The translations under genes and the position numbers were made by a program. Positions 2,116-47,549 of a stretch of DNA of 64,000 bases are shown one piece after another. How positions within the stretch are numbered: position 1 is the stretch's first letter; every line of letters begins with the position of its first letter. The notes below the pieces were generated by a model, which had not been told where the DNA came from, searched no databases, and was given only the letters and a program-made list of their open reading frames with translations. The stretch is from assembly GCA_015057555.1 (NCBI GenBank), contig SVEC01000001.1, positions 62,001-126,000 on the forward strand, read 5' to 3'. This stretch comes from Lachnospiraceae bacterium. GTDB lineage: Bacteria; Bacillota; Clostridia; Lachnospirales; Lachnospiraceae.

Positions 2116-2190
2116 AATTCATAGTATCAGAGAATTAATAACATTATATGTGAATTTTAAGACTCAAATAGAAATATAGGAGAGTATTAA

Positions 2191-3294: not shown

Positions 3295-3329
3295 CAAATA
3301 GAATTTTAAAAGTTAGGAGAATACACGAG

Positions 3330-4418: not shown

Positions 4419-4449
4419 ATTGTTCATAGATAAGTAGGAGAATTAATTC

Positions 4450-5970
4450 ATGAAAAACCAACTTAAAATAGGTATAGTTTTATCATATATTAATATGGCA
4501 TTAAATGTGATTATTCAGTTGTCCTACACTCCTATTATGATTCGTTTGCTTGGTCAAAGTGAGTACGGTTTATATAATTTGGTTAGTAGTGTGGTGAGTT
4601 ATCTGAGTTTATTTAGCTTAGGTTTTTCTGGAGCATATTTAAGATTTTATAACAGGGCTAAAATAGAAGGGGAGAAAAAGGAAGCACAGCTAAATGGTAC
4701 CTTTTTTCTTTCTTTTTGTGTAATGGCATCGATGGCGTTGATTAGTGGTCTCATATTAGCCCAGTTTACGGATGTGATATTTGGTGACAAGCTTTCTTTA
4801 GATGAATTAGGTAAGGCGAAGACGTTAATGATTATCTTAGTTATCAATTTATCAATTTCCTTGCTTTCTTCATTTTTTGATTCAGTAATTTCAGCCTATG
4901 AGAGATTTTTGATTCAGAGATTGCTGACCATATTAGCAACAGTTTTCAATCCAATAATTTGCTTGCCATTATTACTCTTGGGTTATGGTTCTGTTGAGAT
5001 TGTACTGATAACTACATTTATTACTTTAGCTAAATTTATAGCCGACATAATATTCTGTTTTAGAGTATTAAAGCTTAAGTTGACCCTGCAGAACTTTGAT
5101 GTGAATTTGATTAAAGAAATAATGGTGTTTAGTGGTTATATATTCCTTAATATGGTTATTGACCAGATTAATTGGAATGTTGATAAATATATATTAGGCA
5201 GAACTAGTGGGACAGAGGGTGTTGCTATATATGGAGTTGGAGCATTGATTAATTCTTTAGTTATGACATTCTCGACATCTATATCGTCAGTGTTTTCGCC
5301 ACGGATTCATAGTATTGCAAATGGCGCCAAAGAGAATATGTCAAAAGAATTTACTGATTTGTTTGTTAAAGTTGGTCGTATTCAGTTTATTGTTTTGGGC
5401 TTAGTAGTGTCAGGATTTTTTTTCTTTGGAAAGTTTTTTGTTACAGATGTATATGCGGGAAAAGAGTATTATGATGCTTATTATGTTGCTTTGTTATTGA
5501 TAATTCCGGCAATGGTGCCATATATTCAAAATCTGGGTTTAGAGATACAGAGATCTGTTAACAAGCATCAAGTAAGATCTGTTGCGTATGCTGTAATGGC
5601 GACTTTTAATGTTATCTTGAGTATACCGTTGGCTAAATCACTTGGACCAATAGGTGCTGCTATAGGTACATCTATAAGCTTATTCTTTGGAAACATAATT
5701 TTTATGAATATTTATTATCATAAAAAGCTGGAGATAGATGTTATTAGATTTTGGAAAAATATAGGAAGAATATCCCTTGGCATGGTGCCAGCTTTTTTAG
5801 GTGGGGTTGTATATATGCTTTTAGATATTCCGGCTAAATTAAGTTACTTTATAATATGTATAATGATTTATACCTTGATATATTGTGTATCGATATACCT
5901 TATAGGTATGAACTCTCAAGAAAAGGAACTTGTTAAGGACGTGTTTAAGAAGCTTTGTATAATTAGGTAA
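4450..5970 (+). CDS. Wzx-like oligosaccharide flippase
   Basis: A 506-residue integral membrane protein with about 14 predicted spans, typical of the polysaccharide transporter (PST/MOP) family. It opens with a span and loop reading SYTPIMIRLLGQSEYGLYNL, the classic start of EPS flippases. It should move undecaprenyl-linked repeat units across the membrane for polymerisation by the Wzy-like protein at the start of the window. The RBS is AGGAGAATTAATTC. The length matches the family. No truncation is seen. Confidence 0.88.
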   Translation: MKNQLKIGIVLSYINMALNVIIQLSYTPIMIRLLGQSEYGLYNLVSSVVSYLSLFSLGFSGAYLRFYNRAKIEGEKKEAQLNGTFFLSFCVMASMALISGLILAQFTDVIFGDKLSLDELGKAKTLMIILVINLSISLLSSFFDSVISAYERFLIQRLLTILATVFNPIICLPLLLLGYGSVEIVLITTFITLAKFIADIIFCFRVLKLKLTLQNFDVNLIKEIMVFSGYIFLNMVIDQINWNVDKYILGRTSGTEGVAIYGVGALINSLVMTFSTSISSVFSPRIHSIANGAKENMSKEFTDLFVKVGRIQFIVLGLVVSGFFFFGKFFVTDVYAGKEYYDAYYVALLLIIPAMVPYIQNLGLEIQRSVNKHQVRSVAYAVMATFNVILSIPLAKSLGPIGAAIGTSISLFFGNIIFMNIYYHKKLEIDVIRFWKNIGRISLGMVPAFLGGVVYMLLDIPAKLSYFIICIMIYTLIYCVSIYLIGMNSQEKELVKDVFKKLCIIR

Positions 5971-5996
5971 TGTGTTAGTTTATAGAAAGGTTTAAG

Positions 5997-6992
5997 ATGA
6001 GTCAAAATAGTTTGGTAACATATGCTGCATATTATGGTGAGGATGATATTAGGATGAGTAGCTCCTCTGGAGCTATATTCTCTGTGCTGGCAGAATATGC
6101 TTTGTCTGCTAAGGGAGTTGTATATGGAGTTGCTATGACTGAATACTGTAAGGATGCACAGTTTGTCAGGATATGTAATATAAATGAGCTATATAGGCTT
6201 AGGGGCTCAAAGTATTTTCAAGCAAGGGTGGGAGATGCATACAAAACTGTGGAAAATGATTTGAAGCAGGGAAAGGATGTGCTTTTTACAGGTACAGGCT
6301 GCCAGATAAATGGATTAAAAGCATTCCTAGGTAAGGATTACGATAATCTAGTATGTGTGGATGTAATTTGCCATGGTGTTCCTTCGCCGGCAGTATGGAG
6401 AAAATATGTTGAAGAAAAAGAGAAACAGTTGGGTAGTAAATTAAAAAGAACAGAATTTAGATGCAAGGATAACGGTTGGGAGACTTTTGGAATGAAACTT
6501 GTAAAAGATAATGAAACAAGTATTTTTATACCAATGAGTAAAGATTCATTCATGAAAATGTTTTTGAAAAACTACACCTTAAGACCATCCTGTTATGAAT
6601 GTGTAGCAAAAAAAGTAAAGAAATCCGATTTGACGATAGCAGATTTTTGGGGTATAGATAGTGTGGCACCAGAGATGAATGATGGTAAAGGTACATCATT
6701 AGTTTTAATTCGAACTGGTAAGGGGATGGATCTATTTGATAGGATAAGTACCAAGCTTAAGGTAAAGCAAGTTACCTATGAAGAGGGAGTACGAGGAAAT
6801 CCTTCAGAGTATAAGTCTGTGATTAAACCTGCTAAGAGAGATGCCTTCTTTAAGGATTTTATAGATGCATGCAATAATGGTGTGTGTGATGTGGGAAAAT
6901 TAGCAGATAAATATTGTAGAGAAAGCATAATTATTGGTATAAAGCGATCTTTTAAGAGAATTTTACGAAAGAAAACAAACCTCAAGAAATAG
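5997..6992 (+). CDS. FrhB-like (F420 hydrogenase beta subunit C-terminal) protein lacking its ferredoxin domain
   Basis: A 331-residue protein of the coenzyme F420 hydrogenase/dehydrogenase beta-subunit family, a flavin/Fe-S protein type that recurs in EPS loci beside pyruvyl transferases. Visible motifs are SSSSGAIFSVLAEYAL, LFTGTGCQINGLKAFLG, VDVICHGVPSP, a CxxC-type SCYECV, and SDLTIADFWGID. Family members usually begin with about 60 residues carrying two 4Fe-4S motifs. This one starts directly at the catalytic part, after a clear RBS (AGAAAGG). The missing ferredoxin module is encoded downstream at 7070-7267, so the order is reversed. The actual reaction in polysaccharide synthesis is not known to me. 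Confidence 0.75.
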   Translation: MSQNSLVTYAAYYGEDDIRMSSSSGAIFSVLAEYALSAKGVVYGVAMTEYCKDAQFVRICNINELYRLRGSKYFQARVGDAYKTVENDLKQGKDVLFTGTGCQINGLKAFLGKDYDNLVCVDVICHGVPSPAVWRKYVEEKEKQLGSKLKRTEFRCKDNGWETFGMKLVKDNETSIFIPMSKDSFMKMFLKNYTLRPSCYECVAKKVKKSDLTIADFWGIDSVAPEMNDGKGTSLVLIRTGKGMDLFDRISTKLKVKQVTYEEGVRGNPSEYKSVIKPAKRDAFFKDFIDACNNGVCDVGKLADKYCRESIIIGIKRSFKRILRKKTNLKK

Positions 6993-7069
6993 AGGTTAGC
7001 AAAAGTGACTTGGGTTAAGGATTACATTTGCTATCATATCTTAAATACTAAAAAATGGAGAATTGATTA

Positions 7070-7267
7070 ATGCAACAGATACCAGTTTTATATACTAAAA
7101 AAGAGGAATGCTGTGGTTGTACAGCTTGCTATGCAATTTGTCCTAAAAATGCCATTACAATGGTAGAAGATGAAGAAGGATTTCAATATCCCCAGGTGGG
7201 TGAAAGTAAATGCATAAGATGTTATAAGTGTTTGGCAGTATGCCCAATAAAAAATCCTCAGTGGTAA
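7070..7267 (+). CDS. Two-cluster ferredoxin-like fragment (N-terminal module of an FrhB-like protein)
   Basis: A 65-residue product with two 4Fe-4S motifs, CCGCTACYAICP and CIRCYKCLAVCP. The sequence matches what normally forms the N-terminus of FrhB-like proteins in EPS loci. It stops abruptly after AVCPIKNPQW, and its last codons lie inside the left arm of a transcription terminator. It could be a working small ferredoxin serving the truncated FrhB-like protein upstream. More likely it is the 5' remnant of a second FrhB-like gene whose rest was deleted, fusing it to the operon terminator. The start follows ATGGAGAATTGATTA. Confidence 0.65.
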   Translation: MQQIPVLYTKKEECCGCTACYAICPKNAITMVEDEEGFQYPQVGESKCIRCYKCLAVCPIKNPQW

Positions 7268-7286
7268 GAACTACTGAGGACTTTTT
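7255..7286 (+). terminator. Intrinsic terminator of the exopolysaccharide operon
   Basis: An 11-bp stem (TCCTCAGTGGT at 7255-7265 with ACTACTGAGGA at 7270-7280, one G-U pair) with a 4-base loop, followed by CTTTTTG. The left arm overlaps the last codons and stop of the ferredoxin-like gene. Confidence 0.85.
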
Positions 7287-7421
7287 GTATAGTTCAAATT
7301 TTGAATGTGCAAGGGTCTTATTTTTGCAAATGTACGACGAATTATGGTATGTCCAGTCATTTACATTTTTTATAATAAGAATTATAATTACAATTAATAC
7401 AAAAAAGGAGGACATAAGCTA

Positions 7422-9824
7422 ATGAAAGCAAAAAAGAAAATAGTTTCATATTTACTATGTGTACTAATGGTTGCTGTAATATGTGGTTCATATAGTAACC
7501 TAGTTAAGGCATCTCAGGTGTCGGGAGAACCGGGTGTAGAACCTGCAAGCACCGTTATTCCTTACACAGATGCCCAGGTAAAGGATAGTGAGGGTACATT
7601 TACAGTGACTGGTGAAGTGGCTACATATTCGTTGCCAGCATATTCTTGGAATACAGATTCAGTTGAAATAAAAAATGTAACAGGATATTTGTATAAGCTG
7701 GATCCTGCTCAGGGAGAATTGTTCACTGTGAAGATGGAATATACAGGTACAGATGCTAATGCAAATATGTATGGGGAAATATATCATCCTATGGATTTGG
7801 AAACAGGAGAGTATTGCTTGACTGAAACCTATATTGCTCTTGATGTAAATAAAACTGTAGAAATTTTTAATGTTGCAACTGAGGCATATTTGTATTTAGG
7901 GGATTATGATTGGAGTGATGTTACAATCACTATAAGCAAGATGCAAAACATTTCAAGCCTTAAAAATACTGCTGTAAATGTGACCAAGGCTAGTACTATA
8001 ACAAAAACAATTTCTGATGTTTGTTACACATATAATTTTGATAATTTTTTTAGTAGAGGCTTTCTTATTAAGCTTCCTATAAAATCATACGAGGGATATA
8101 CTATAGGCTTGGAGGATAACGATAATGGAAATGCCCAGCTGTTGATATTTGAAGAATCTAAGCTAGGAAAAGAAGTAAGCTTTTATGAAGGTGTAGTAGA
8201 TAAGCAGTTATTTAATGCTAGTGATAAAGAAATTATATATTACATTTGGGTGTCAAGTATTAATGGTAGCTTAGATACCTTGACTGTGAATATTTCTGAT
8301 ATCGAGATGATAAGTGATAGAAATAATACAAAGCTTGCTATAGATGCAAAGCCTGTTAAGGTTCCTGCCGAGGAAAAAAATATTAATGTTATTTCAAAGA
8401 AGTATGATGCAAATGGTAATCAGTATAATGACCTAACTATCTATGGTGGTCAGGCATATTGTGTAGAAATTCCAGCAAATTCTCTTTATAAATTAAAGTG
8501 TGAGTTTGTAGGAGAGCAAAAAGCAGAGGATGCTAGTCAGTTTGCTACTACATATATAGTTGATGAGAATGATTTTGAAATCGCGTCACTTTGGGTAAGC
8601 GATTACAAGGAAGCTGCATATGAAGAAAATATTGAAGTTTATCTTTTGAATAACACAACCAATAAGAAAAAGATGTTTTATTTTATAGTAGCAGGAAGCT
8701 ATGACGAGGGAAATATCCAGATATCTGTAGAATCGATTCCTGAGGTTAAGGTTAGCTACCGTACTCACATTCAGTCAATTGGCTGGGAGGCGTCAGAGAA
8801 GGATATTTCAAAATGGAAGTCTAATGGTGCTATGTCAGGTACTTCAGGCAAATCAAAGAGACTTGAGGGCATCAACATTGTTGTAGATAGCGCAGCTGCA
8901 AATAAGGATTTAGATCTTGGAATTCAGTATACAACTCATTGTCAGTCCTATGGTTGGTTACCATGGTCGGCAAACGGAGAGATGAACGGAACTGAAGGGG
9001 AGGCTAAGAGATTAGAGGCCATCTCTATAAAGCTTACAGGTAAAGATGCAATCTGTTATGATATATACTACCGTGTTCACGCTCAGTCCTACGGTTGGTT
9101 AAATTGGGCTAAGAATGGTGGCGTTGCAGGAACTGCAGGCTACGGAAAGAGACTTGAGGGTATACAGATAGTAGTGGTTAAGAAGGGCACAGCAATTAAT
9201 GAAACACTAGGTGGTATAACCTCAATTAAGACAGATTCTTATATAGCAAAAGAGGGTGTTTCACCAGTTGTAAACTATGGTGGAATACCAAACTCTAGTC
9301 AGGATATTCCAGGAGAACATAATATTAATGTTTCCTATAGAACTCATGTACAGTCCTTCGGATGGCAAGGCTGGAAATATAACGGTCAGATGAGTGGTAC
9401 TTCTGGTAAGTCAAAGAGACTTGAAGGAATTAACATTAAGCTTACAAACCAGATGTATGACGGCGATATAGTTTATACTACACACGTACAGAAGTATGGT
9501 TGGCAGGGTAAGCTTGAGGACCAGTCTACTTGGAAGAAGAATGGTGAGATGGCTGGAACTTCAGGTGAAGCTAAACGTCTTGAGGCAATCTGTATCAACC
9601 TTACAGGTGAGATGGCAGAAAAATACGACATATATTATCGAGTACATGCTCAATCATATGGCTGGCTTGGATGGGTTAAGAATGGTGACCCAGCTGGAAC
9701 TGCAGGTTACGCAAAGAGACTTGAAGGAATCCAGATAGTCCTCGTACTAAAGGGAGAGGATGCACCAGCTAAAAACTATGAAGGAATTACATCCGTAAGA
9801 ACAGAAGGATATATTTCAAAGTAG
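7422..9824 (+). CDS. Secreted ChW-repeat protein
   Basis: An 800-residue exported protein with a strong RBS (AAAGGAGG). It has a basic start and hydrophobic signal peptide (KKKIVSYLLCVLMVAVICG) with cleavage likely near LVKASQ. Residues about 35-440 look like beta-rich extracellular domains I do not recognise. Residues about 443-781 hold six ChW (clostridial hydrophobic, conserved Trp) repeats with the pattern YRTHxQSxGW, W..NG, GTxGxxKRLEGI. They fall into two triplets (nt 8749-9180 and 9325-9762) joined by a linker, and repeats 1/4, 2/5 and 3/6 match best, so a three-repeat block was duplicated. ChW repeats are thought to bind cell-surface or extracellular polymers. The gene is monocistronic and follows the EPS operon terminator. 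Confidence 0.8.
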   Translation: MKAKKKIVSYLLCVLMVAVICGSYSNLVKASQVSGEPGVEPASTVIPYTDAQVKDSEGTFTVTGEVATYSLPAYSWNTDSVEIKNVTGYLYKLDPAQGELFTVKMEYTGTDANANMYGEIYHPMDLETGEYCLTETYIALDVNKTVEIFNVATEAYLYLGDYDWSDVTITISKMQNISSLKNTAVNVTKASTITKTISDVCYTYNFDNFFSRGFLIKLPIKSYEGYTIGLEDNDNGNAQLLIFEESKLGKEVSFYEGVVDKQLFNASDKEIIYYIWVSSINGSLDTLTVNISDIEMISDRNNTKLAIDAKPVKVPAEEKNINVISKKYDANGNQYNDLTIYGGQAYCVEIPANSLYKLKCEFVGEQKAEDASQFATTYIVDENDFEIASLWVSDYKEAAYEENIEVYLLNNTTNKKKMFYFIVAGSYDEGNIQISVESIPEVKVSYRTHIQSIGWEASEKDISKWKSNGAMSGTSGKSKRLEGINIVVDSAAANKDLDLGIQYTTHCQSYGWLPWSANGEMNGTEGEAKRLEAISIKLTGKDAICYDIYYRVHAQSYGWLNWAKNGGVAGTAGYGKRLEGIQIVVVKKGTAINETLGGITSIKTDSYIAKEGVSPVVNYGGIPNSSQDIPGEHNINVSYRTHVQSFGWQGWKYNGQMSGTSGKSKRLEGINIKLTNQMYDGDIVYTTHVQKYGWQGKLEDQSTWKKNGEMAGTSGEAKRLEAICINLTGEMAEKYDIYYRVHAQSYGWLGWVKNGDPAGTAGYAKRLEGIQIVLVLKGEDAPAKNYEGITSVRTEGYISK

Positions 9825-37277: not shown

Positions 37278-37351
37278 TATGGAGATTAATGGGAGGGGGT
37301 GGTATAATTATTGTTGAGTGATAATTGAGATAAATGAAAGGGGCGATAGAA

Positions 37352-39778
37352 TTGTCATTTTTTGAAAAGAATTATAAAAATTTAATGCTATTGAGTCAAA
37401 ATGATTCAAAACAAGATGGATTTAGGAATGCACAATTAGGTGCTTTGTATTCTATTGGTGCGCATTTTTTTTATAATAGTGAGCCGGGCATAATTACAAT
37501 GCCAACAGGTAGTGGCAAGACGGCAGTTATTATGAGTGCTCCTTTTTTACTGCAAGCAAAACGTGTATTAATTATTACACCAAGTAGACTTGTGAGAAGT
37601 CAAATAGCAAATGATTTCTCTGAATTAAATACGCTTAATAAGATAGGCGCATTTAGAAAGGTAATTGGAAGAATCAAAGTTAAGGAAATTGAAACAGTTA
37701 TTAGCTTTGATGATGTAGAAGAATTGAAGAAATATGATGTAATTGTATCGGCTCCTAACAGTATAAAAGTAAGTAAGAGTGCAGAAATTCATATACCTGC
37801 TGATTTTTTTGATTTGGTAATTGCTGACGAAGCACATCATTCTGCTTCAGAATTGTGGGGACAAATATTAAGTTATTTCAGTTGTGCAAAGCAGATTTTA
37901 GTAACAGCGACTCCGTATCGAAGAGATCATAAAGAAATAAAAGGAAAATTTTTGTACAGTTATACAATGACACAAGCTTATAAAGATGGAATATTTGGTG
38001 AGATTGAGTTTTTGCCAGTAAATTCATTAGGAAATGCTGATGTTGCAATTGCTAAGGAAACAGAAAAACAGTTTTTAAAGGACAAGGAAAGTGGGTTGTT
38101 TCATCGAGTGATGGTAAGAACTGCTTCTAAGAAGAGAGCTGACGAATTGGTGAAAGTTTACGAAGAGAATACAGAACTGTGCCTTTTGAAAATAGATAGT
38201 GATGTGGCGTATTCTGAGATTCGAGCTACCATTAATAAGTTAAAATTGGGAGAAATAGATGGTGTTATTTGTGTTGATATGATGGGAGAGGGGTTTGATT
38301 TTCCTAATTTAAAAATTGCTGCTGTACATGCACCACATAAATCATTGGAAGTGACACTTCAGTTTATAGGACGATTTTCAAGGACAAGTGGTAGTAATAT
38401 AGGCAAAGCAAAATTCATAGCTGTGCCTAGCGAAATAGAAATAGAGGCAGAAAAGATATATGATTCGGATGCTGTATGGTCAGAATTGATTCCGCATATG
38501 AATGATCAAAAATTGATGCATGAGATTAATAATCGAGAGGTTATAAATAAAATTAAAAGTATACGGTCGGATGGAGAATACAAGGCGATTTCAGCAGGTA
38601 TTTTCAAACCATTTGCGCATTCGAAAATATATGATGTGTTTGGAGAAGTGGATTATAGTTTTCAATTACATGATTTTGAAAATGCTAAAGTTGTTAATGA
38701 GTTTAGGGAACCAGATACAAATAGTATTGTCTATTTATTAAAAGAGGACGTAAAACCTAAATGGATAACAGATAATCAAATAATGAATACGGAATACAAT
38801 TTAGTTGTTGTATACTATGATATGGTACATAAGTTATTACACATTAATTCTTCTATAAAGAAAGAAGAATTATATGAGTTAATAGCTGAAAAAATGGTTA
38901 AGAATGGTAAATACAAAAGAATTCCATCTTCATATTTAAAACGTGTATATAGAAATATGAAATCAATAGACTTTTTCAATATTGGCCTTAAGAGTGGAAT
39001 TAATAGTAGCAAAAAGGAAGATTATAGAATAATTGCAGGTCAAGGAGTTCATAAAGCGTTAACTGAGGAGTATGGAAGTACTTTTTTTAGAGGACATAGT
39101 ATGGCTGGTGGTACTGATCCTGAATTAGGTAAAATAACTATGGGATATAGTGCTGGGTCTAAGGTGTGGAGTAATGCGTATTTACAAATTCCCGATTATA
39201 TAATGTGGTGTAAACATGTATCAAAGCAAATTAGAGATAAATCTATTGTAAAAACAGGAACAGAATTTGATAATGTTCCGGATACAGAATTTATTACAAA
39301 ATTGCCCAAAGACTTTTTTGTTGTGTCGATAATATGGGATCTGTCAGTATATGAAGGCAATATCACACAATTATTAGATTGGGATAGAGGAGAATGTTGG
39401 CAATTATTAGATTTAGAAGTAAAATTCGTAGAGCAGATTAACGAGCATGAGTTTTCTTTTTTATTAGTAGCATCGGATAATCAAATAGAAATTAAATCAA
39501 CTATCTCTGATAAAGGTATGACCTTTTCTCTGTTAGCAGAAGATTCAGACAGATTTAGGGTTGTTGAACAATCCACAGCATATAACTTGTGTGACTATTT
39601 GAAATATTACCAACCTACATTCTATCTGACAGATTTCTCCGCTATTTGTAATAATGAATATTTTGCAGTTAATCAAAAGAATAGTATCATAAACACAGAA
39701 TGGTTTGAGCAGATTGATTGGAGTGAATATGATATTACAAAGGAGTTTAGGGAGAAGGATGTTTTCATGGGTGACTAA
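37352..39778 (+). CDS. Superfamily 2 DEAD/DEAH helicase, large accessory type
   Basis: An 808-residue protein. The helicase core has MPTGSGKTAVI (Walker A), ITPSRLVRSQ, VIADEAHHS, LVTATPYRRD, GVICVDMMGEGFDFP and LQFIGRFSRT. The C-terminal 400 residues match no domain I recognise and include an HGH-like FFRGHSMAGG. Start: TTG 37352 lies 8 bases after AAAGGGG. ATG 37334 is in frame but precedes that ribosome site and has none of its own. The downstream TOPRIM-nuclease fragment overlaps its end, so the pair may be the remains of a helicase plus OLD-like nuclease defence system. Confidence 0.75.
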   Translation: MSFFEKNYKNLMLLSQNDSKQDGFRNAQLGALYSIGAHFFYNSEPGIITMPTGSGKTAVIMSAPFLLQAKRVLIITPSRLVRSQIANDFSELNTLNKIGAFRKVIGRIKVKEIETVISFDDVEELKKYDVIVSAPNSIKVSKSAEIHIPADFFDLVIADEAHHSASELWGQILSYFSCAKQILVTATPYRRDHKEIKGKFLYSYTMTQAYKDGIFGEIEFLPVNSLGNADVAIAKETEKQFLKDKESGLFHRVMVRTASKKRADELVKVYEENTELCLLKIDSDVAYSEIRATINKLKLGEIDGVICVDMMGEGFDFPNLKIAAVHAPHKSLEVTLQFIGRFSRTSGSNIGKAKFIAVPSEIEIEAEKIYDSDAVWSELIPHMNDQKLMHEINNREVINKIKSIRSDGEYKAISAGIFKPFAHSKIYDVFGEVDYSFQLHDFENAKVVNEFREPDTNSIVYLLKEDVKPKWITDNQIMNTEYNLVVVYYDMVHKLLHINSSIKKEELYELIAEKMVKNGKYKRIPSSYLKRVYRNMKSIDFFNIGLKSGINSSKKEDYRIIAGQGVHKALTEEYGSTFFRGHSMAGGTDPELGKITMGYSAGSKVWSNAYLQIPDYIMWCKHVSKQIRDKSIVKTGTEFDNVPDTEFITKLPKDFFVVSIIWDLSVYEGNITQLLDWDRGECWQLLDLEVKFVEQINEHEFSFLLVASDNQIEIKSTISDKGMTFSLLAEDSDRFRVVEQSTAYNLCDYLKYYQPTFYLTDFSAICNNEYFAVNQKNSIINTEWFEQIDWSEYDITKEFREKDVFMGD

Positions 39779-40840: not shown

Positions 40841-41581
40841 ATGTCCATCAATTTTGAAAACAAATTATTTATAGACGCACCAACAACATTGCAGGGAGAT
40901 TTAAGTAATCTTATTAATAATTCTACAGCAGCCTATGGATTAGCTGAAAGTCAGGATAATCCTGAGACTGCATTGGCTAGAAAAGCACTTTGGGATAAGC
41001 TGATTAATAAGTCTAAAAGTCATATGGAGTTAGGGATGATTGCCCTTGGAATTATTTCGGGTTTGTTTTTATTTTTTTCCTTGGGTGCATTTATTTTATA
41101 TTGTAATGATGAAAATGAAGGGTACATATTAATTATTGCTATATTTGTGGCTTTAACCTGCTATTGTGGATGGGTTAGTAAGAAGCTTCTACATATGAAG
41201 GAAAATCAGTTTGTGATTGATATATCTAATTATAATGATGAATGCTATCAGTTCCGTATTATGCCAGATAACAGGCTATACATTTTGGTAGGTGCAAATT
41301 TTGATGAGAATGGAGAAACTCTAGCAACCAATGCTATAACCGAGGTTGATCCTGTGTGCTCAGATTTGATTGTTATGAATAGCATTAGCAGTATTAATCA
41401 ATATGCTGAGGGAGCAGTTATAAAAGGGGAAGCAATTATTAAATCCTATAGAATAAGGGAGGGATATAGAAGATATCTTCAGCTTGAGTATCCTCAGCAG
41501 ATGACTGTTTTCTTGCAAAAGGGAATATATCCAGAAGAAATGCTTGAGAAAGTAGCTCATACTTATAGTATGACAATTTAA
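40841..41581 (+). CDS. Hypothetical membrane protein
   Basis: A 246-residue protein starting 1 base after the phosphatase stop, so the two are cotranscribed. Residues 1-60 are soluble; two membrane spans follow (MIALGIISGLFLFFSLGAFI and ILIIAIFVALTCYCGWVS), then a 120-residue soluble domain. No signal peptide. I do not recognise the family. The coupling hints that it could be a substrate or partner of the phosphatase. Confidence 0.65.
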   Translation: MSINFENKLFIDAPTTLQGDLSNLINNSTAAYGLAESQDNPETALARKALWDKLINKSKSHMELGMIALGIISGLFLFFSLGAFILYCNDENEGYILIIAIFVALTCYCGWVSKKLLHMKENQFVIDISNYNDECYQFRIMPDNRLYILVGANFDENGETLATNAITEVDPVCSDLIVMNSISSINQYAEGAVIKGEAIIKSYRIREGYRRYLQLEYPQQMTVFLQKGIYPEEMLEKVAHTYSMTI

Positions 41582-41588
41582 TAAAAGG

Positions 41589-41632
41589 AAAAGCTTCGAC
41601 GAGAAAAAATCGTCGAAGCTTTTCTTTTTTTT
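41589..41632 (+). terminator. Intrinsic terminator of the phosphatase operon
   Basis: AAAAGCTTCGACGA (41589-41602) pairs perfectly with TCGTCGAAGCTTTT (41610-41623), followed by CTTTTTTTT. It separates the accessory island from the RiPP locus. Confidence 0.92.
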
Positions 41633-41720: not shown

Positions 41721-42158
41721 GTGTTTGTCAAAGGATTTGAAAATGCAAGTACAGAAGAGCTAAAAAATTTTTTGGAGTACGTTTACATAGATGAAGATTA
41801 TGATTTGACAAAATACAAGGAAAAGGAGGATTACATAGAATTATTTTACCAAAGATTTAAGCATAGGGTTAGGTTTAAGGATATACAGTATATAGAGGCT
41901 TATAATGGTTATACTGAGTTTCAGGTTGGGACAAAAAGGTTTAGAAGAGAGGAGTCATTAAAGGAAATAGAAAAAATGATAGATATGTCTATGTTTGTGA
42001 GAATCCAGAGAAGCTTCATAGTGAATTTATTGCATATTAAAAGGTATGAAAAAATGGAAGTGGAAGTGGGGGGAATAAGGATACCGGTTTCTAGGAGAAG
42101 AAGGAAAAGCTTCGAGGAAATTTATACCAGATATCAAATTTCAACATGCAATTTATAG
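41721..42158 (+). CDS. LytTR-family transcriptional regulator
   Basis: A 145-residue protein. The C-terminal 95 residues form a LytTR DNA-binding domain: VRFKDIQYIEAYNGYTEFQV, then MFVRIQRSFIVNLLHIKRYE and IPVSRRRRKSFEEIY. No receiver domain precedes it, only about 45 acidic residues, so it is not a classic response regulator and may respond through its short N-terminus. GTG 41721 follows GGGAGG with 7 bases between. It is immediately upstream of the RiPP precursor, and a LytTR-type repeat lies at its stop codon, so it most likely controls the peptide operon. Confidence 0.85.
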   Translation: MFVKGFENASTEELKNFLEYVYIDEDYDLTKYKEKEDYIELFYQRFKHRVRFKDIQYIEAYNGYTEFQVGTKRFRREESLKEIEKMIDMSMFVRIQRSFIVNLLHIKRYEKMEVEVGGIRIPVSRRRRKSFEEIYTRYQISTCNL

Positions 42159-42236
42159 ATTTGTCTTAACCATTTATAGACATAAAAAACCACTAAAGGA
42201 GTTATCATTGCATAGTAAAAATTCTATTGCTACAAT
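42151..42236 (+). promoter_or_regulatory. LytTR-type operator and promoter of the RiPP operon
   Basis: ATTTATAGA at 42151-42159 and again at 42172-42180 are identical 9-mers separated by 12 bases, the exact spacing of AgrA/ComE-type LytTR sites. Downstream is TTGCAT (42208-42213), 17 bases, TACAAT (42231-42236). The first repeat overlaps the stop codon of the regulator gene. Confidence 0.7.
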
Positions 42237-42354
42237 CCCAATTAGAAGATAAGAGATGGTAGTTAGATTACTTATTATTCTTCTGTGGGGATTCTATTAT
42301 CGGCTCTTGGGAGGTCGGTTTATAGGATAAATAATGTAGAAAGGAGAAATGACT

Positions 42355-42510
42355 ATGGGATGTTCAAATGACGCAGCAGTAGTTGCAAGCTGTGGTATCT
42401 CTTGTTTAGCAGGATGTGGCGCAAGTGCCCTCTTTACTTTAGGAATGGGTACAGCTGTTCTTGCAGTTGCAGGTACTTCAGGTGGTGCTTTAGGTTCAGT
42501 AGCAAGCTAG
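42355..42510 (+). CDS. Cys-rich RiPP precursor, thuricin CD alpha-like (candidate sactipeptide)
   Basis: A 51-residue peptide with a strong ribosome site (AAGGAG, 8 bases before ATG 42355). It starts MGCSNDAAVVASCGISC and continues LAGCGASALFTLGMGTAVLA. Cys13, Cys17 and Cys21 form CxxxCxxxC, the spacing found in thuricin CD alpha. The rest is a hydrophobic Gly/Ala/Ser/Thr-rich tail, with Ser and Thr available as thioether acceptors. There is almost no leader: the first Cys is residue 3 and the core motif begins at residue 13. It is followed by a radical SAM/SPASM gene, a second SPASM gene and an ABC exporter. I infer an antimicrobial or signalling peptide with Cys-to-alpha-carbon crosslinks. 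Confidence 0.8.
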   Translation: MGCSNDAAVVASCGISCLAGCGASALFTLGMGTAVLAVAGTSGGALGSVAS

Positions 42511-42537
42511 TAATAGCTACATATTGACCAGACAAAG

Positions 42538-42582
42538 GGCGGACAAGCATTTTCAGTGATTTGGGTTTGTCCGCCTATTTTC
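42538..42582 (+). terminator. Attenuator hairpin between precursor and maturase genes
   Basis: GGCGGACAAG (42538-42547) pairs with TTTGTCCGCC (42566-42575), followed by TATTTTCT, a weak T tail. Partial read-through would give more precursor than enzyme, as is common in RiPP operons. Confidence 0.7.
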
Positions 42583-42608
42583 TAATATGAATATACGGGG
42601 GTGAAAAA

Positions 42609-44123
42609 TTGAGTAATAAGAGCCTTTATTTTGACAGATTTAAGACCTTATCAGGTAATACATATTTGTACGATGGAGTTACCTCGGTGGTGGTGCCGGA
42701 TAACGGGATTTTGGAGCAGATAATTAGAATGAAGCATCAAGGGAAAAGTGATGAAGAGGTTTTGGCTGAATTATCTGGACCAGATATATCAGACAAGGAA
42801 CTAAAAAGTACCTTGATTTTTTATAACAGATGGGAGAAGAATTTTCAGGGCTTTTCCCTAGCTAGGAAGGAGCATAGCATACCTAAGGTTACAGCACAGG
42901 ATATAAAGGATACCTTGGACCAGGGAGATATATACATATTAATCCTAAATGTAACTGAGGATTGTAATTTTCGCTGCAAGTATTGCTACCTTTCTGAAGC
43001 CTATGATTACACAAGAAATCGAACTACAAAGCGTATGAGCTTTGACACTGCTAAGGCAGCTATCGATTATTATTACAAGCTTTTAGATGACTACAGGTTC
43101 AAGAAGCCTAACAAGAAGGTGAATATAAATTTCTTCGGTGGAGAGCCACTGTTGGAGTTTGAGCTTCTGAAAAAATGTGTGGAATATGCCAAGGCTAATA
43201 CCACCAGAGAGGTAGCATTTAATATTACTACTAACGGTTATCTTCTTACAGATAAAATCAGTGACTTTTTGGTAGAGAATAATTTTTACATATCCGTAAG
43301 CTTAGACGGAGCCAAAAAGAATAATAGCCAGAGAGTATTGGCAAATGATATTCCTACCTTTGACCGAATAGTGGACAACCTTAAGAACTTTAAGAAGCGT
43401 TATCCTGAGTACACTAACATAGGCATTTTATCAGTATATGATATTAACACAGACCTTGACGAGAATGTGGCTTTCTTCAAGGATCCAGAGCTTCCACCTG
43501 TCCTTAGAGCTACAGGTGTTTCAAATAACAATACTGATTACTATGACCAGTTTAAGGATGCTGATTATGAAAAGTTTAGGGAAACTATGTACAGACTCAG
43601 GGAGGAATATCTGGATAAAAAGATGAAAAGTGAACCTATGTCAGGCTATCTGCAGGTGTTTTTTGAATCAGAGCTATTTACAGTTCTTATGAGAAAACGT
43701 CACAGAGATGACAACACCGGTTCTATTATTCCTTACACCGGTACCTGCGTGCCAGGCATAAGACTTAGTGTTAGAGCTGACGGAACCCTTGACATCTGTG
43801 AGCGTATGAATCAGGAGTTCCCTATAGGAAATGTACATACAGGCTACAACTACGAGGCCTTGGCAAATATAGTTAACAAATATAACGAGAGCATTACCGC
43901 AAGCTGTAGAGAGTGTATAGGCAATAAGATTTGTCAGATATGCTTCGCACAGGTTGCAGGAGACAAGAGCTTTACCTACAAGCCTGAGATATGTAAGCAG
44001 ATTCAGGAGATGATTAAGAATGGAAACTCTGTAATATACAGTATTCTTGAGGAGAATCCTGAGGCCTATACATTGGAGGGTATGGAAAAGGTAATTGAGA
44101 ATATGATTAAGTTTGAGGGATAA
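42609..44123 (+). CDS. Radical SAM/SPASM peptide maturase (sactisynthase-like)
   Basis: A 504-residue enzyme. Residues 1-90 resemble a peptide-recognition (RRE, PqqD-like) module, with YLYDGVTSVVVPDNGILEQI. The radical SAM cluster motif is CNFRCKYC (Cys119, 123, 126), and NFFGGEPLLEF (GGEP at 177-180) contacts SAM. The SPASM domain supplies Cys380, 397, 433, 436, 442, 445 and 462 for auxiliary Fe-S clusters. This is the layout of AlbA/TrnC-type enzymes that make Cys-to-alpha-carbon thioethers. Start TTG 42609 follows GGGGGTG. It is 98 bases after the precursor, past the attenuator, and most likely acts on the 51-residue peptide. Confidence 0.85.
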   Translation: MSNKSLYFDRFKTLSGNTYLYDGVTSVVVPDNGILEQIIRMKHQGKSDEEVLAELSGPDISDKELKSTLIFYNRWEKNFQGFSLARKEHSIPKVTAQDIKDTLDQGDIYILILNVTEDCNFRCKYCYLSEAYDYTRNRTTKRMSFDTAKAAIDYYYKLLDDYRFKKPNKKVNINFFGGEPLLEFELLKKCVEYAKANTTREVAFNITTNGYLLTDKISDFLVENNFYISVSLDGAKKNNSQRVLANDIPTFDRIVDNLKNFKKRYPEYTNIGILSVYDINTDLDENVAFFKDPELPPVLRATGVSNNNTDYYDQFKDADYEKFRETMYRLREEYLDKKMKSEPMSGYLQVFFESELFTVLMRKRHRDDNTGSIIPYTGTCVPGIRLSVRADGTLDICERMNQEFPIGNVHTGYNYEALANIVNKYNESITASCRECIGNKICQICFAQVAGDKSFTYKPEICKQIQEMIKNGNSVIYSILEENPEAYTLEGMEKVIENMIKFEG

Positions 44124-44136
44124 AGGAGGAGATAAA

Positions 44137-45393
44137 GTGAGTTGGTTAAGGTTTTATCCGGATGTGATTTTGAAGAAGGGATATGTGAATTCAACCCTTT
44201 ATTTTCTCGGTGAGAAGAAGACTATCGTTCTTACCGGAAGAGAAAGTGAGTTATTAAATTATCTCCTAGAGCATTCTGTGGAGCAGGCTAAGGATACTTT
44301 TGGAAGTGAATTAGTAGAATGTGCCATTAACAAGGTTTTAGATAGTGGAATGGGTAATTTGTATGATAACAAGGTGTTTGCAGAAAAATACAAGCCTAAT
44401 ATTGACTTTTTTGTGGAGCAGTTTTTTCAGGATAGATTTAGTATCTATGAATTTTGTGTTCAGCTTCCTGTGTCAGAGGATTCGGAGTATAGGGCTCCAA
44501 AGAATGTATTAGTTCATGAGGGCTGCAATTCATGTCTTGTACCAGATATTGATGTGATGGATGCAGTAAGCTATAGGCAACTACTGTACAACAATCTAAA
44601 GCTTATACGGGGAGTGAACGTCAATCATTTTACAATACAAGGAGGTAATCCACTTGATAACTGGGAGCTTGTAATGGAGCTTTTACAGGAGGCTAAGGAA
44701 GGCTTTAAATGTATGACAGAGCTGGTATTTCCTAACAAGCCTATTAGCAGAGATATTGTTGAACAGCTTAAGGCATATAATGTGCTGGTAAAGCTTAGTC
44801 TTTATGCAGAGGAAATTATAGAACAAAATGAGGTGTTTACTAATAATGTTAATCTGCTTATTCAGGAGGACATGGATGTGAAGGTAAATGTTATTTATCA
44901 TTCCAAGTCCTATGTTTATCCAAGTGCAGTTAATGAGGTAATAAAGCAGTTGGGAATAGACAATAAGGATTGCACTCATTTGATTTGTGGTCCAAAGGAT
45001 AAGCTGATTGCCTTAAGTACAAATATTGATAGAGTGGAAAACATTGGCCCGGATGGGTACTATTCCAAGCGAAGCTGTATGCTGGGAAGAATAGCTATAA
45101 CAGCAGACGGATTTATTCGTCCGTGTAGCTTTAATTCCCACGTTATTGGTTATCTAAGCCATGGAATAATGACTGTATTTGAAAAGGACCTTCATACAAA
45201 ATTCTGGCGTCATTCCAAGGAAGATGTGCAAAGATGTAGGGGCTGTGAAAATCGATATGCATGTATGGATTGTGCCAGTCTTGAGGAATATATTGATCAG
45301 GATGAGAAATATTTATCAGTACTATGTAATTACAATCCTGAGGAGGGTATATGGGTTGATGAGGCCCTTAGAGAGGAGGACTTTGCATGGTAG
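44137..45393 (+). CDS. SPASM protein with degenerate radical SAM domain (pseudo-rSAM)
   Basis: A 418-residue protein shaped like a radical SAM/SPASM maturase but without CX3CX2C. The expected place reads VHEGCNSCLVPDID, with only Cys130 and Cys133. The SAM-contact motif is IQGGNPLDNW instead of GGEP. The SPASM region is complete (RSCMLGRIAITADGFIRPC, RCRGCENRYACMDC and a last LC). The N-terminal 80 residues could be a second peptide-recognition module. I infer a non-catalytic partner that binds the precursor or auxiliary clusters alongside the active enzyme, where thuricin CD uses two active ones. GTG 44137 follows AAAGGAGGAG; the frame opens at 44113, overlapping the previous gene. Confidence 0.78.
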   Translation: MSWLRFYPDVILKKGYVNSTLYFLGEKKTIVLTGRESELLNYLLEHSVEQAKDTFGSELVECAINKVLDSGMGNLYDNKVFAEKYKPNIDFFVEQFFQDRFSIYEFCVQLPVSEDSEYRAPKNVLVHEGCNSCLVPDIDVMDAVSYRQLLYNNLKLIRGVNVNHFTIQGGNPLDNWELVMELLQEAKEGFKCMTELVFPNKPISRDIVEQLKAYNVLVKLSLYAEEIIEQNEVFTNNVNLLIQEDMDVKVNVIYHSKSYVYPSAVNEVIKQLGIDNKDCTHLICGPKDKLIALSTNIDRVENIGPDGYYSKRSCMLGRIAITADGFIRPCSFNSHVIGYLSHGIMTVFEKDLHTKFWRHSKEDVQRCRGCENRYACMDCASLEEYIDQDEKYLSVLCNYNPEEGIWVDEALREEDFAW

Positions 45394-46118
45394 TTGCAGA
45401 TGTATTCAACCTTTCAAAAAGCTATAAGGATAAAAAGGTTTTAGATAACATTTCCTTTCAGCTGAAAAATGGAGATATAGTAGGTTATCTAGGAAAAAAT
45501 GGTTCAGGAAAAACTACAACTATTAATATTTTGGTAGGTTTATTAGGGTATGATTCTGGAAGTATATCATTGCTAGGTAGAGATATTTCAAAGGATTACA
45601 ATAAGCTTTATGGTAGAGTTGGAATTATGTTTGATGAGAATGGTCTGTATTCCAAAATGACAGTAAAGCAGAATTTAGACTATTTCGAGAAGCTATTTAA
45701 GATGGATACTAGAAAGAATAAAACCTTTATAGCAGAGTTATATAAGGAGATGGATTACGATAACATTAAGAATGTGCAGGTTTCTAAGCTTTCTAAAGGA
45801 ATGAAGCGTATGGTTGCATTAGCTAGAACGCTTATGATGTGGCCGGAGATTCTTATATTAGATGAGCCCTTTGATGGAATTGATATAGAAAACAGAAGTA
45901 GCTTTATTAGGCTTATCAAAAAGTATTATCAGGCGAAAAAGCCGGCTATTATTTTAACATCACATGTAATGGCTGATATTGAGGAGTTGGCTAATAGGAT
46001 TATTGTTCTCAGAGATAGTAAGATTATAGTGGATGAGACTATGGAAAATTTCAAAGCTCAGGGAAAGGATAATTCTATGACTCTAAGTGAAATATATCTA
46101 AGCAAGATATGCAGTTAG
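45387..46118 (+). CDS. ABC transporter ATP-binding protein (RiPP export/immunity)
   Basis: A 243-residue ATPase. Walker A is GKNGSGKTTT, the signature SKLSKGMKRMVALART (LSKGM variant), Walker B ILILDEPFDGID, and the switch His is in ILTSHVMADIEEL. This type powers two-component exporters such as bacteriocin self-protection pumps. Its ATG overlaps the stop of the pseudo-rSAM gene by 7 bases, so translation is coupled, and the permease follows after 9 bases. It likely exports the modified peptide or protects the producer. Confidence 0.9.
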   Translation: MVVADVFNLSKSYKDKKVLDNISFQLKNGDIVGYLGKNGSGKTTTINILVGLLGYDSGSISLLGRDISKDYNKLYGRVGIMFDENGLYSKMTVKQNLDYFEKLFKMDTRKNKTFIAELYKEMDYDNIKNVQVSKLSKGMKRMVALARTLMMWPEILILDEPFDGIDIENRSSFIRLIKKYYQAKKPAIILTSHVMADIEELANRIIVLRDSKIIVDETMENFKAQGKDNSMTLSEIYLSKICS

Positions 46119-46127
46119 GAGGAAGCT

Positions 46128-46847
46128 ATGAAGAAGGATGTATATATGATAGGTGTAATAGTCAAAAAGGAAATAGTGGACACCATAAGAACTCTAGGAA
46201 TCTTTTTGATTGCCATGATTTTTTGCTTCAATCTTTGTATATATATTACAGATACTGAGATTTTTGAATTGGGTATTCCTAAGGAGATTTTGCCCTACCA
46301 GCTGGGACTTAGCATGATGTATCTTGTGGCTATGACCTCCTTATTCTTAGGTACAACCTTAACCAATAAGATGATATATGAAGAGAAGCGAACAAAAACT
46401 ATGCATATGCTTCTTGGTATGGGAGTGCCTAAGGAGGTGGTTTGGCTAGGAAAAATATTAGCCATAGTAATAATGTGTGCCCTGTTTGGTGTGTTAAATG
46501 TTTTAGTACATATAATTTTTGTATGGATTTGGTTTGATGTACTGATTAAATTTAATGGTATGGCCATTGCTATGGTATTTATCACTGTTCCTATGCTTTG
46601 CTATGGTTTTATTGCTTTAGCATCAGTGGCATATATGTATTTTAGTAGAATGAATATTGTGGGAATGTTTATTCAGATAGTGCCTTATCTGGCAGTGTGG
46701 GAGGTATCCTCAAGCCTGGTGGAATATACCAAGGTTCCTTTATATATAATGTTGCTAAGCTTAGGTATAGGCTTGGTTGCAATTATAGTATCAATGCTTT
46801 GTGTTATGGGAATGTCTAAGGAAAGGATTGTGAGTAGAGTTGACTAA
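46128..46847 (+). CDS. ABC-2-type permease (RiPP export/immunity)
   Basis: A 239-residue membrane protein with six predicted spans. The loop YEEKRTKTMHMLLGMGVPKE is typical of ABC-2 permeases. It pairs with the preceding ATPase as a homodimeric exporter. RBS AGGAGG. No peptidase domain is present in the exporter, so if a leader is removed another protease is needed. Confidence 0.85.
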   Translation: MKKDVYMIGVIVKKEIVDTIRTLGIFLIAMIFCFNLCIYITDTEIFELGIPKEILPYQLGLSMMYLVAMTSLFLGTTLTNKMIYEEKRTKTMHMLLGMGVPKEVVWLGKILAIVIMCALFGVLNVLVHIIFVWIWFDVLIKFNGMAIAMVFITVPMLCYGFIALASVAYMYFSRMNIVGMFIQIVPYLAVWEVSSSLVEYTKVPLYIMLLSLGIGLVAIIVSMLCVMGMSKERIVSRVD

Positions 46848-46854
46848 TATAGTG

Positions 46855-47292
46855 ATGAAAAAAAGATATGTGGATCAGGTATATGGGTTCACCATGGACA
46901 TACCTGTTGGCTGGGAAATAAAGCAAAATATTGATGATATGAGGTTGTTTGTCTTTAGAGAGGATTCAAATGAGAGAGCCTTATCTAACTTGAATTTAAC
47001 AGTGCTAGAAAATATAAATGATGGAACCATAGAGCAGATATTACGAAAAACAAGAAGTGATGTAAGAAAAATGCTACAGAATTTTCAAGCTTTTGAAACT
47101 AAAAAAATAGATGATAATCTCGGAAGTTTTATATGTAGAGGAATTTTTCAAGGCAGAGAGTATATATATCATCAAAATATTTATCTAATAGAAGATGAAA
47201 TATTTTGCTTTACTACATGTTTTAGCTGCGAAGATAATGAGGAGCTTCAAGTACAGCTAGATTATATGTTGCTGTCAGTGGATTTTTGTTAG
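46855..47292 (+). CDS. DcrB/PsbP-like small protein in the RiPP operon
   Basis: A 145-residue soluble protein. The opening VYGFTMDIPVGWEI and later LNLTVLENINDG, ending in DYMLLSVDF, fit the DcrB/PsbP-like fold seen in small bacterial proteins that often carry a lipid or TM anchor. None is visible here. The start is uncertain: ATG 46855 or TTG 46840 (which overlaps the permease stop), and neither has a good ribosome site. Position between exporter and small membrane protein suggests immunity or assembly help. Function unproved. Confidence 0.55.
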   Translation: MKKRYVDQVYGFTMDIPVGWEIKQNIDDMRLFVFREDSNERALSNLNLTVLENINDGTIEQILRKTRSDVRKMLQNFQAFETKKIDDNLGSFICRGIFQGREYIYHQNIYLIEDEIFCFTTCFSCEDNEELQVQLDYMLLSVDFC

Positions 47293-47303
47293 GAGGTGAT
47301 ATG

Positions 47304-47498
47304 ATGCCTACAGTGTTTTATTGGATAATGTGTATTGTTATATTATTGGTATTTGATAGAATGTTTGGTAAAAGAGACAAGAAACCTCAGGAAACTGAAA
47401 CTCCAAGAGAGAAAAAGGTTAGAACTGTAAAAGGTGTAATTCTTGCGGTGGCTATGGTTGGATTAGCCTGTGCAATTTCATATTATGTGAGAAAGTAG
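47304..47498 (+). CDS. Small two-span membrane protein, possible immunity factor
   Basis: A 64-residue protein with two hydrophobic helices (VFYWIMCIVILLVF and VKGVILAVAMVGLACAISYY) separated by a charged, Lys/Glu-rich linker. ATG 47304 is 7 bases after AGGAGG; the upstream gene's stop overlaps the ribosome site. Last gene before the operon terminator. Small membrane proteins at this place in bacteriocin operons often give self-immunity, which is only inferred here. Confidence 0.6.
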   Translation: MPTVFYWIMCIVILLVFDRMFGKRDKKPQETETPREKKVRTVKGVILAVAMVGLACAISYYVRK

Positions 47499-47503
47499 TG
47501 AAT

Positions 47504-47549
47504 AATACCCCTAGCTTTAGGTAATGATACTTGAGTAGGGGTATTTTTT
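47504..47549 (+). terminator. Intrinsic terminator of the RiPP operon
   Basis: AATACCCCTA (47504-47513) pairs with TAGGGGTATT (47536-47545), followed by TTTT. Confidence 0.88.

Follow-up and report, generated by a model that had tools for sequence, protein, structure and literature searches.

Maturation of thuricin CD-type peptides involves two look-alike radical S-adenosylmethionine (SAM) enzymes, and the need for both was only partly explained in 2025. The question returns in a locus of a Lachnospiraceae bacterium, at positions 41721 to 47549 of a 64,000-nucleotide stretch of contig SVEC01000001.1 (hereafter the window), where the gene of a short cysteine-rich peptide is followed by those of two SPASM-domain proteins, the second of which has lost the CxxxCxxC motif of radical SAM enzymes. 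What can such a protein contribute? An interpretation made earlier from the letters of the DNA (the sequence-only reading) had listed a peptide, a SPASM pair, an ATP-binding cassette (ABC) ATPase and permease, two small proteins, a LytTR regulator and a terminator, and all of these were found where it had placed them. In our view the window probably carries a single-peptide sactipeptide locus built on the thuricin CD/thuricin Z plan, with a TrnD-like pseudo-radical-SAM protein serving as scaffold partner.

The enzyme pair and the lost CxxxCxxC motif

Enzyme 1 (42609..44123, 504 residues; this and all locus features below are on the + strand) is a TrnC-like radical SAM/SPASM protein (PF04055, E 7.6e-18) with a single CxxxCxxC motif (CNFRCKYC) and a seven-cysteine SPASM domain. 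Apart from two long gaps, the spacing of this domain, C380-x11-G-x4-C-x35-C-x2-C-x5-C-x2-C-x16-C, is that published for TrnC, C-x11-G-x4-C-x36-C-x2-C-x5-C-x2-C-x14-C (PMC12093266). The marks of a TrnC-like enzyme, i.e. CxxxCxxC, seven SPASM cysteines and the blocks C-x11-G-x4-C and C-x2-C-x5-C-x2-C, are thus all present. The protein is 94% identical to its counterpart in L007, a genome of the same genus (Lachnospiraceae metagenome-assembled genome RGIG6221, from sheep rectum), an origin that agrees with the gut anaerobe suspected before. At the same place the start codon is TTG in the window (42609) and ATG in L007. Enzyme 1 was also inspected for an N-terminal recognition element for ribosomally synthesized and post-translationally modified peptides (RiPPs): helices are predicted within residues 34-79, where single blocks reach a pLDDT (the predicted local accuracy score) of up to 78, in a structure model that is poor as a whole.

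Protein 2 (44137..45393, 418 residues), a TrnD-like radical SAM-fold/SPASM protein, retains all seven SPASM cysteines, but none of the CxxxCxxC cysteines is left; its relatives have CNGNCDFC or CNYHCKYC at this place. A second enzyme with a CxxxCxxC of its own is therefore present neither in the window nor in L007, and motifs and SPASM spacing agree with the earlier view of a thuricin CD-type locus with one protein bearing the radical SAM cysteines. With the Pfam radical SAM model (cut-off 29.5 bits) protein 2 scored 16.7 bits; three of four relatives with intact motif scored 37.9-45.6 bits, the fourth (L046, see below) 29.0 bits, and L017, which also lacks the motif, 22 bits. The best NCBIfam match was TIGR04193 (grasp-with-spasm SPASM maturase) with 42.1 bits, below the cut-off of 175 bits (L046: 56.2 bits). 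Protein 2 retains the GGN motif of the SAM-binding place, and a Foldseek search with the low-confidence model of protein 2 returned radical SAM structures, TigE, CteB and anSME among them, at TM-scores of about 0.3.

In a survey of related loci (see below) the pair was recognized in 12 loci, and the partner had an intact CxxxCxxC in nine of them. It was missing in the window, in L007 and in L017, whose partner has CDIEGDNC with the middle Cys replaced by Gly. All seven SPASM cysteines were kept in the seven partners that were aligned, and these cysteines and one Trp were the only invariant columns of the alignment. In the enzyme 1 tree the window and L007 group with L008 and L009 (support 98/95) and L017 groups with L016 (81/81). 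In the tree neighbours of both branches the partner is intact, a pattern consistent with two independent losses: all three cysteines may have gone in the window clade and, on another occasion, the middle one in L017, although no peptide gene was found beside the latter. The partner tree itself is too weak to test this.

The biochemistry of thuricin CD bears directly on this pattern. TrnC and TrnD are reported to act as a complex; with TrnD C109A/C113A the fully bridged product was still made at slightly reduced activity, TrnC C114A/C118A gave no product, and auxiliary-cluster double mutants were dead (PMC12093266). These results imply that a partner may lose CxxxCxxC but not the SPASM cysteines, and the pattern seen here matches.

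It could be argued that enzyme 1 works alone and that protein 2 is a remnant in the course of being lost. The motif is gone, identity to L007 is 76% as against 94% for enzyme 1, and TrnC alone does form product, slowly and with less than 5% efficiency (PMC12093266). We consider this quite improbable. The reading frame is intact in two species, and 187 of 252 synonymous sites differ between them (synonymous divergence, dS, saturated) as compared to 153 of 1002 nonsynonymous sites (nonsynonymous divergence, dN, only 0.171). The first 40 residues are identical, and to these the invariance of the SPASM cysteines is added. Protein 2 is under purifying selection.

Conceivably, protein 2 might also bind a third cluster through other cysteines and itself catalyse a radical or redox reaction: both species have C107, C130, C192 and C279, and the GGN motif would suit such a role. 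With all three CxxxCxxC cysteines gone, however, and C133, the neighbour of C130, replaced by Tyr in L007, such chemistry appears very improbable; moreover, the GC[NR]SC pair also occurs in the partners of L008 and L009, whose CxxxCxxC is intact.

The precursor peptide and the thuricin plan

The precursor gene (42355..42507) encodes 51 residues with cysteines at positions 3, 13, 17 and 21 (CxxxCxxxC) and a tail rich in Gly, Ala, Ser and Thr. Start at an in-frame ATG two codons upstream would give 53 residues; the Shine-Dalgarno sequence stands 8 nt upstream of the second ATG, as compared to just 2 nt for the first. There is one such gene in the operon and one match in the bacterium's own genome (87% complete), so the two different precursors of two-component sactibiotics are not found here. 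Among 145 relatives searched the gene was detected in two, each time beside locus genes; a peptide of this kind apart from SPASM genes, which the sequence-only reading had named as a case against it, was not seen in these genomes.

The precursor is 94% identical between the window and L007 (dN 0.027, dS 0.193). Its synonymous differences (7 of 41 sites) are far fewer than those of enzyme 1 (200 of 300; Fisher p 1.6e-9); the difference from the neighbouring rubrerythrin gene (37 of 108; p 0.045) has the same direction but is smaller. At the DNA level the segment around 42291-42490 is 92% identical to L007, compared to 62-89% in almost every other block of 100 bases across the operon (95% at 44091-44190). 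This low divergence could stem from codon selection, from constraint on the mRNA or from an exchange of the segment that holds the precursor.

A short precursor with CxxxC, two adjacent genes of the radical SAM/SPASM type and ABC genes are the hallmarks of the thuricin CD/Z type, and all are found here; judged by sequence, the window locus belongs with thuricin CD and thuricin Z. With thuricin CD (trnA-G, Bacillus thuringiensis DPC 6431) it shares the CxxxCxxxC, in which three cysteines are bridged in the known peptide, a TrnC-like SPASM domain, a two-protein maturase and ABC genes; thuricin CD differs in consisting of two synergistic peptides. With thuricin Z (thz, Bacillus thuringiensis serovar huazhongensis) it shares a single peptide sequence, a short leader, two proteins of the radical SAM type and ABC genes. 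Thuricin Z differs in having two identical precursor genes and four bridged core cysteines, and the passages on it that we drew on mention no LytTR gene.

This comparison also disposes of the suggestion that a single precursor and a nearly absent leader mark a new sactipeptide subclass. Both are already known in thuricin Z/huazacin, where one peptide sequence is made from two identical genes (PMC8172795), and in the 47-residue precursors, identical in two Bacillus strains, the first Cys of CxxxCxxxC is residue 12 (PMC3132745) as compared to residue 13 in the window. The leader of the 47-residue precursor would be about eight residues long if mature Cys4 corresponds to its residue 12, and a cut after about eight residues would place C13 of the window peptide near position 5 of the product. 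In thuricin CD the bridge from C5 spans 23 residues. Those from C13 to S21 and from C9 to T25 span 8 and 16 residues (PMC12093266). Applied to the window peptide, this register would predict the acceptors L29, T33 and L36, i.e. bridges of approximately C21-L29 (or C21-T28), C17-T33 and C13-L36.

The nature of the linkage has to be weighed against the affinities of enzyme 1. Its best NCBIfam match was TIGR04068 (CcpM, a Cys-rich-peptide maturase) with 235.7 bits (cut-off 500), followed by TIGR04148 with 195.2 bits; NF035951 (RumMC, the ruminococcin C maturase) gave 174.9 bits (cut-off 720) and the ranthipeptide enzyme PapB, not far behind, 148.6 bits, all of them below cut-off. These scores leave room for a C-beta or C-gamma thioether (ranthipeptide) or another radical cross-link, with protein 2 still as helper. 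We regard this as unlikely: a peptide beside the same pair in Ruminococcus albus 7 belongs to the huazacin family (see below), the bridges of thuricin Z are reported at C-alpha (PMC8172795), and CxxxCxxxC followed by a hydrophobic Gly/Ala/Ser/Thr tail fits nested sactionine hairpins. From these features we infer C-alpha bridges for the sactipeptide proposed here.

The missing motif of protein 2 had been put forward as unusual, and this part stands in reduced form. According to Murphy (2011), two of ten TrnD-like proteins lack CX3CX2C, a count that is uncertain as the table of that paper gives 100% (PMC3132745). Since such proteins were known in 2011, the window locus is a variant and not a new class; what remains new is the conserved SPASM domain, the sign of purifying selection and the connection with the TrnC/TrnD work of 2025. 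One of the earlier cases is Clostridioides difficile 630 (CD0162/CD0163), where a TrnD-like neighbour without CX3CX2C stands near a CxxxCxxxC peptide; there CD0162 is also described as lacking the motif (PMC3132745), whereas enzyme 1 of the window has it. As to thuricin Z, ThzD is reported as active in a review (PMC8172795), though Bthur0011_60830 is listed without CX3CX2C (PMC3132745). For the years after 2011 a limited literature search found no discussion of pseudo-radical-SAM partners. A pseudo-radical-SAM partner is also known from the GG-Bacteroidales system, where it forms a curated family of radical SAM-like proteins that lack the cluster motif and stand beside a TIGR04148 maturase; this system differs from the window locus in phylum and in precursor type.

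Related pairs in other genomes

Related loci were collected from overlapping sets of genomes. Enzyme 1 gave six matches at E 1e-50 in 397 genomes of the family, and protein 2 matched in four of 245 relatives, the window genome and L007 included. A search with the partner alignment at E 1e-12 yielded six matches in 392 genomes of the order and nine in 391 of the class. In 299 genomes of the phylum the huazacin model gave two weak matches, none over the cut-off. An origin from a phage or plasmid was considered and rejected. Among plasmids one record (pRUMAL03) matched enzyme 1 and none matched protein 2. The pRUMAL03 enzyme in turn matched 19 records; in the annotations of four of these (L146-L149) two such genes side by side are not seen, the second radical SAM gene of L146 being about 5 kb away. 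From a scan of viral contigs 79 loci were kept, with identities of 22-38%.

The 12 loci with the pair are the window, L007, L008, L009, L016, L017, L018, L033, L039, L043, L046 and L144. L033 and L039 were counted for protein 2, their enzyme 1 being split into two open frames, and L034 was excluded for internal stops in the partner gene; the split genes (L033 5028-6353, L039 9797-11250) and the stops (L034, around G568:C110:2086-2940) could reflect decay or assembly error. Also left uncounted were L036, L037, L038 and L040, which have partner-like proteins without enzyme 1 in the stretch examined, and L035, L041, L042, L044 and L045, which gave weaker matches and no recognized pair; L145 matched neither enzyme model.

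Beyond the window and L007, a gene for a Cys-rich, Gly/Ala/Ser/Thr-rich peptide was present near the pair in 8 of 10 loci. In L008, L016 (two genes), L043 (152 residues), L046 and L144 it lies upstream of enzyme 1; L018 and L039 have it downstream of protein 2, and L009 after the permease. No Cys-rich peptide gene was found beside the pair in L017 and L033. In L039 an ABC gene separates enzyme 1 from protein 2. The two L016 precursors (6899-7326, before the pair) differ from each other and contain CxxC repeats, and a two-peptide system is possible there.

The most informative relative is L046, plasmid pRUMAL03 of Ruminococcus albus 7. Its two identical 68-residue precursors (7190-7641, CxxxC-x7-CxxxC) are annotated by NCBI as 'huazacin family RiPP peptide' and passed the cut-off of the huazacin model NF037972 (50.1 bits; cut-off 35); L034 scored 32.1 bits, and the window and L007 precursors were unmatched. 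The same CxxxC-x7-CxxxC spacing was seen in the L008 and L009 precursors. As in the window, the order in pRUMAL03 is LytTR regulator, precursor(s), radical SAM protein, partner (annotated merely 'hypothetical protein'), ABC ATPase and one more protein annotated as hypothetical; the differences are other genes after the LytTR gene, the duplicated precursor and an intact CDNNCFFC in the partner. The association of a huazacin-family precursor with the same pair supports the thuricin-type interpretation of the window.

For the partner in this branch we give about even chances to the more specific proposal that it is a pseudo-radical-SAM protein in which selection maintains two auxiliary-cluster sites and the N-terminal domain, as scaffold or electron relay. 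Its barrel was less conserved than that of enzyme 1 in six of six pairs compared, as expected if the chemistry of the partner matters less. Between the window and L007, protein 2 is identical at 90 of 104 positions (87%) in the N-terminal part, 142 of 201 (71%) in the barrel and 84 of 113 in the SPASM part, and an N-terminal lead over the barrel was also seen in the L016/L017 pair.

Several observations weigh against the scaffold interpretation or the thuricin assignment. Among controls with intact motifs the N-terminal lead was absent from L008/L009 and L008/L033 but present in L009/L033 and L018/L046, so that the contrast is suggestive at most. In the partner phylogeny 6 of 13 inner branches were open, and in L039 the partner frame stops before the last SPASM Cys. 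The two structure models, made from two-row alignments, are both poor (mean pLDDT 47.7 and 43.3). Against each of the named maturase families listed, enzyme 1 scored far below the cut-off, and no NCBIfam match was obtained with the precursors of the window (E up to 1) and L007 (E up to 10). TrnD keeps CxxxCxxC and has a truncated SPASM domain with three cysteines, the reverse of protein 2; because of this difference the equivalence of the two rests on gene order and role, TrnC and TrnD being known here by published description. Finally, many single auxiliary-cluster mutants keep significant activity (PMC12093266), and a 2021 review describes both ThzC and ThzD as active by themselves in vitro (PMC8172795).

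Operon, regulation and genomic setting

The locus is a single operon-like set of genes on one strand, sharply bounded by two strong terminators: a hairpin at about 41586-41625, which terminates the gene upstream, and a Rho-independent terminator (47503..47549, stem-loop and T run). The first gene (41721..42155) encodes a LytTR DNA-binding regulator of 145 residues (PF04397, E 5.8e-19) in which no receiver domain was found. Behind protein 2 follow an ABC transporter ATPase (45387..46118; PF00005, E 1.4e-30), an ABC-2-like permease of 239 residues (46128..46847; many hydrophobic stretches, weak PF12730 match, E 0.063), a soluble protein of 150 residues (46840..47292; TTG start) and a membrane protein of 64 residues (47304..47498, likely ATG at 47304). 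The soluble protein has no hydrophobic segment, gave no family above cut-off in NCBIfam and Pfam scans and is conserved in L007. The membrane protein, which has a 64-residue counterpart in L007, contains two hydrophobic segments separated by a charged stretch (scanned as 66 codons from 47298). The permease has the same place in the gene order of L007, L008 and L009. The ABC pair would serve export or self-protection; the membrane protein is a candidate immunity protein, and the soluble one a candidate immunity or accessory protein.

A role in anti-phage defence was also considered and rejected. In a PADLOC scan the two best matches of enzyme 1 were viperin models, within the radical SAM barrel, and the third was a weak Cas8a match (E 0.0068); the other four proteins scanned gave no match.

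Between the regulator gene and the precursor lies a tandem direct repeat (42169..42197; ACCATTTAT / ACCACTAAA, 20 bp start to start), a candidate binding site in the light of the LytTR consensus. L007 has the 20-bp spacing as well, about as far from its precursor. In the gap between precursor and enzyme 1 a hairpin (42537..42575) folds in the window and also in L007, where the stem carries paired changes, and L008 has a different stem; the hairpin is likely a partial terminator or mRNA stabilizer. Regulator, repeat and hairpin together suggest LytTR-controlled expression with the precursor in excess, and the LytTR regulator likely controls the operon. The presence of the LytTR gene and the conserved repeat directly upstream raises the question of whether the product, instead of being a bacteriocin, acts as a signal that is sensed by a circuit under LytTR control. 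LytTR-type regulators also stand near the genes of L008 and L018 (by eye) and of pRUMAL03, where the regulator is annotated together with a GHKL-domain protein. In the window, however, the operon is without a receptor kinase, and the ABC pair and the small membrane protein resemble export and immunity; a signalling role is therefore doubtful, and a bacteriocin is what we expect.

In L007 the whole locus is present, gene for gene, LytTR gene included, between the same neighbours. Its proteins are 67-94% identical to those of the window (dN 0.03-0.25), and synonymous sites are saturated or nearly so in every gene but the precursor. High protein identity at near-saturated dS indicates that all parts of the locus have been kept by selection and not by chance. 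In two further congeners, L142 and L143, the locus and its LytTR gene are missing, and the flanking genes (on the left a small phosphatase with or without a 246-residue protein, on the right a flippase and rubrerythrin) are 105 and 114 bp apart. The locus is thus an optional insert.

The 246-residue protein, of membrane type and no recognized family, occurs once in the window (40841-41581) and in L142, seemingly twice in L007 (3869-5344) and is absent at this place in L143. To the left of the small phosphatase gene (left of 40276 in the window), gene content differs in all four same-genus genomes viewed: a helicase-like protein of 814 residues in the window (37334-39778), a restriction-modification-like set in L143 (reverse strand, 115-7601), ATPase, HNH and integrase-like genes in L142 (160-5784) and a PHP/ATPase-like protein in L007 (540-2927). 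Names, presence and absence in this paragraph were judged by eye; the region looks like a variable, defence-rich spot.

On this basis the following course of events can be envisaged. The LytTR protein would bind the tandem repeat and switch on the precursor, whose mRNA would be held in excess by the hairpin behind it. Enzyme 1 would cleave SAM at its CxxxCxxC cluster, take the alpha-hydrogen of the acceptor residues in the tail and form up to three nested bridges from Cys-S to C-alpha, the inner Cys reacting first and the others outward in turn. Protein 2 would do no SAM chemistry; its N-terminal domain would bind enzyme 1 and the peptide, and its SPASM domain would hold auxiliary Fe-S clusters. 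The ABC pair would export or expel the peptide, a protease, none being found in the locus, would trim about eight residues, and the 64-residue membrane protein, perhaps with the 150-residue protein, would protect the producer. The product would most likely be a membrane-active, narrow-spectrum bacteriocin.

In a 2026 survey of rumen bacteriocins the class table contains four sactipeptides (PMC13289728), and the window locus would add a compact gut-anaerobe source of a likely narrow-spectrum peptide. In this locus evolution has apparently done to the partner what the TrnD cysteine mutants did in the test tube. If this is true, two independent losses would show that the second protein of this family is a scaffold or an electron relay and not a catalyst, and the natural protein pair makes this idea directly testable.

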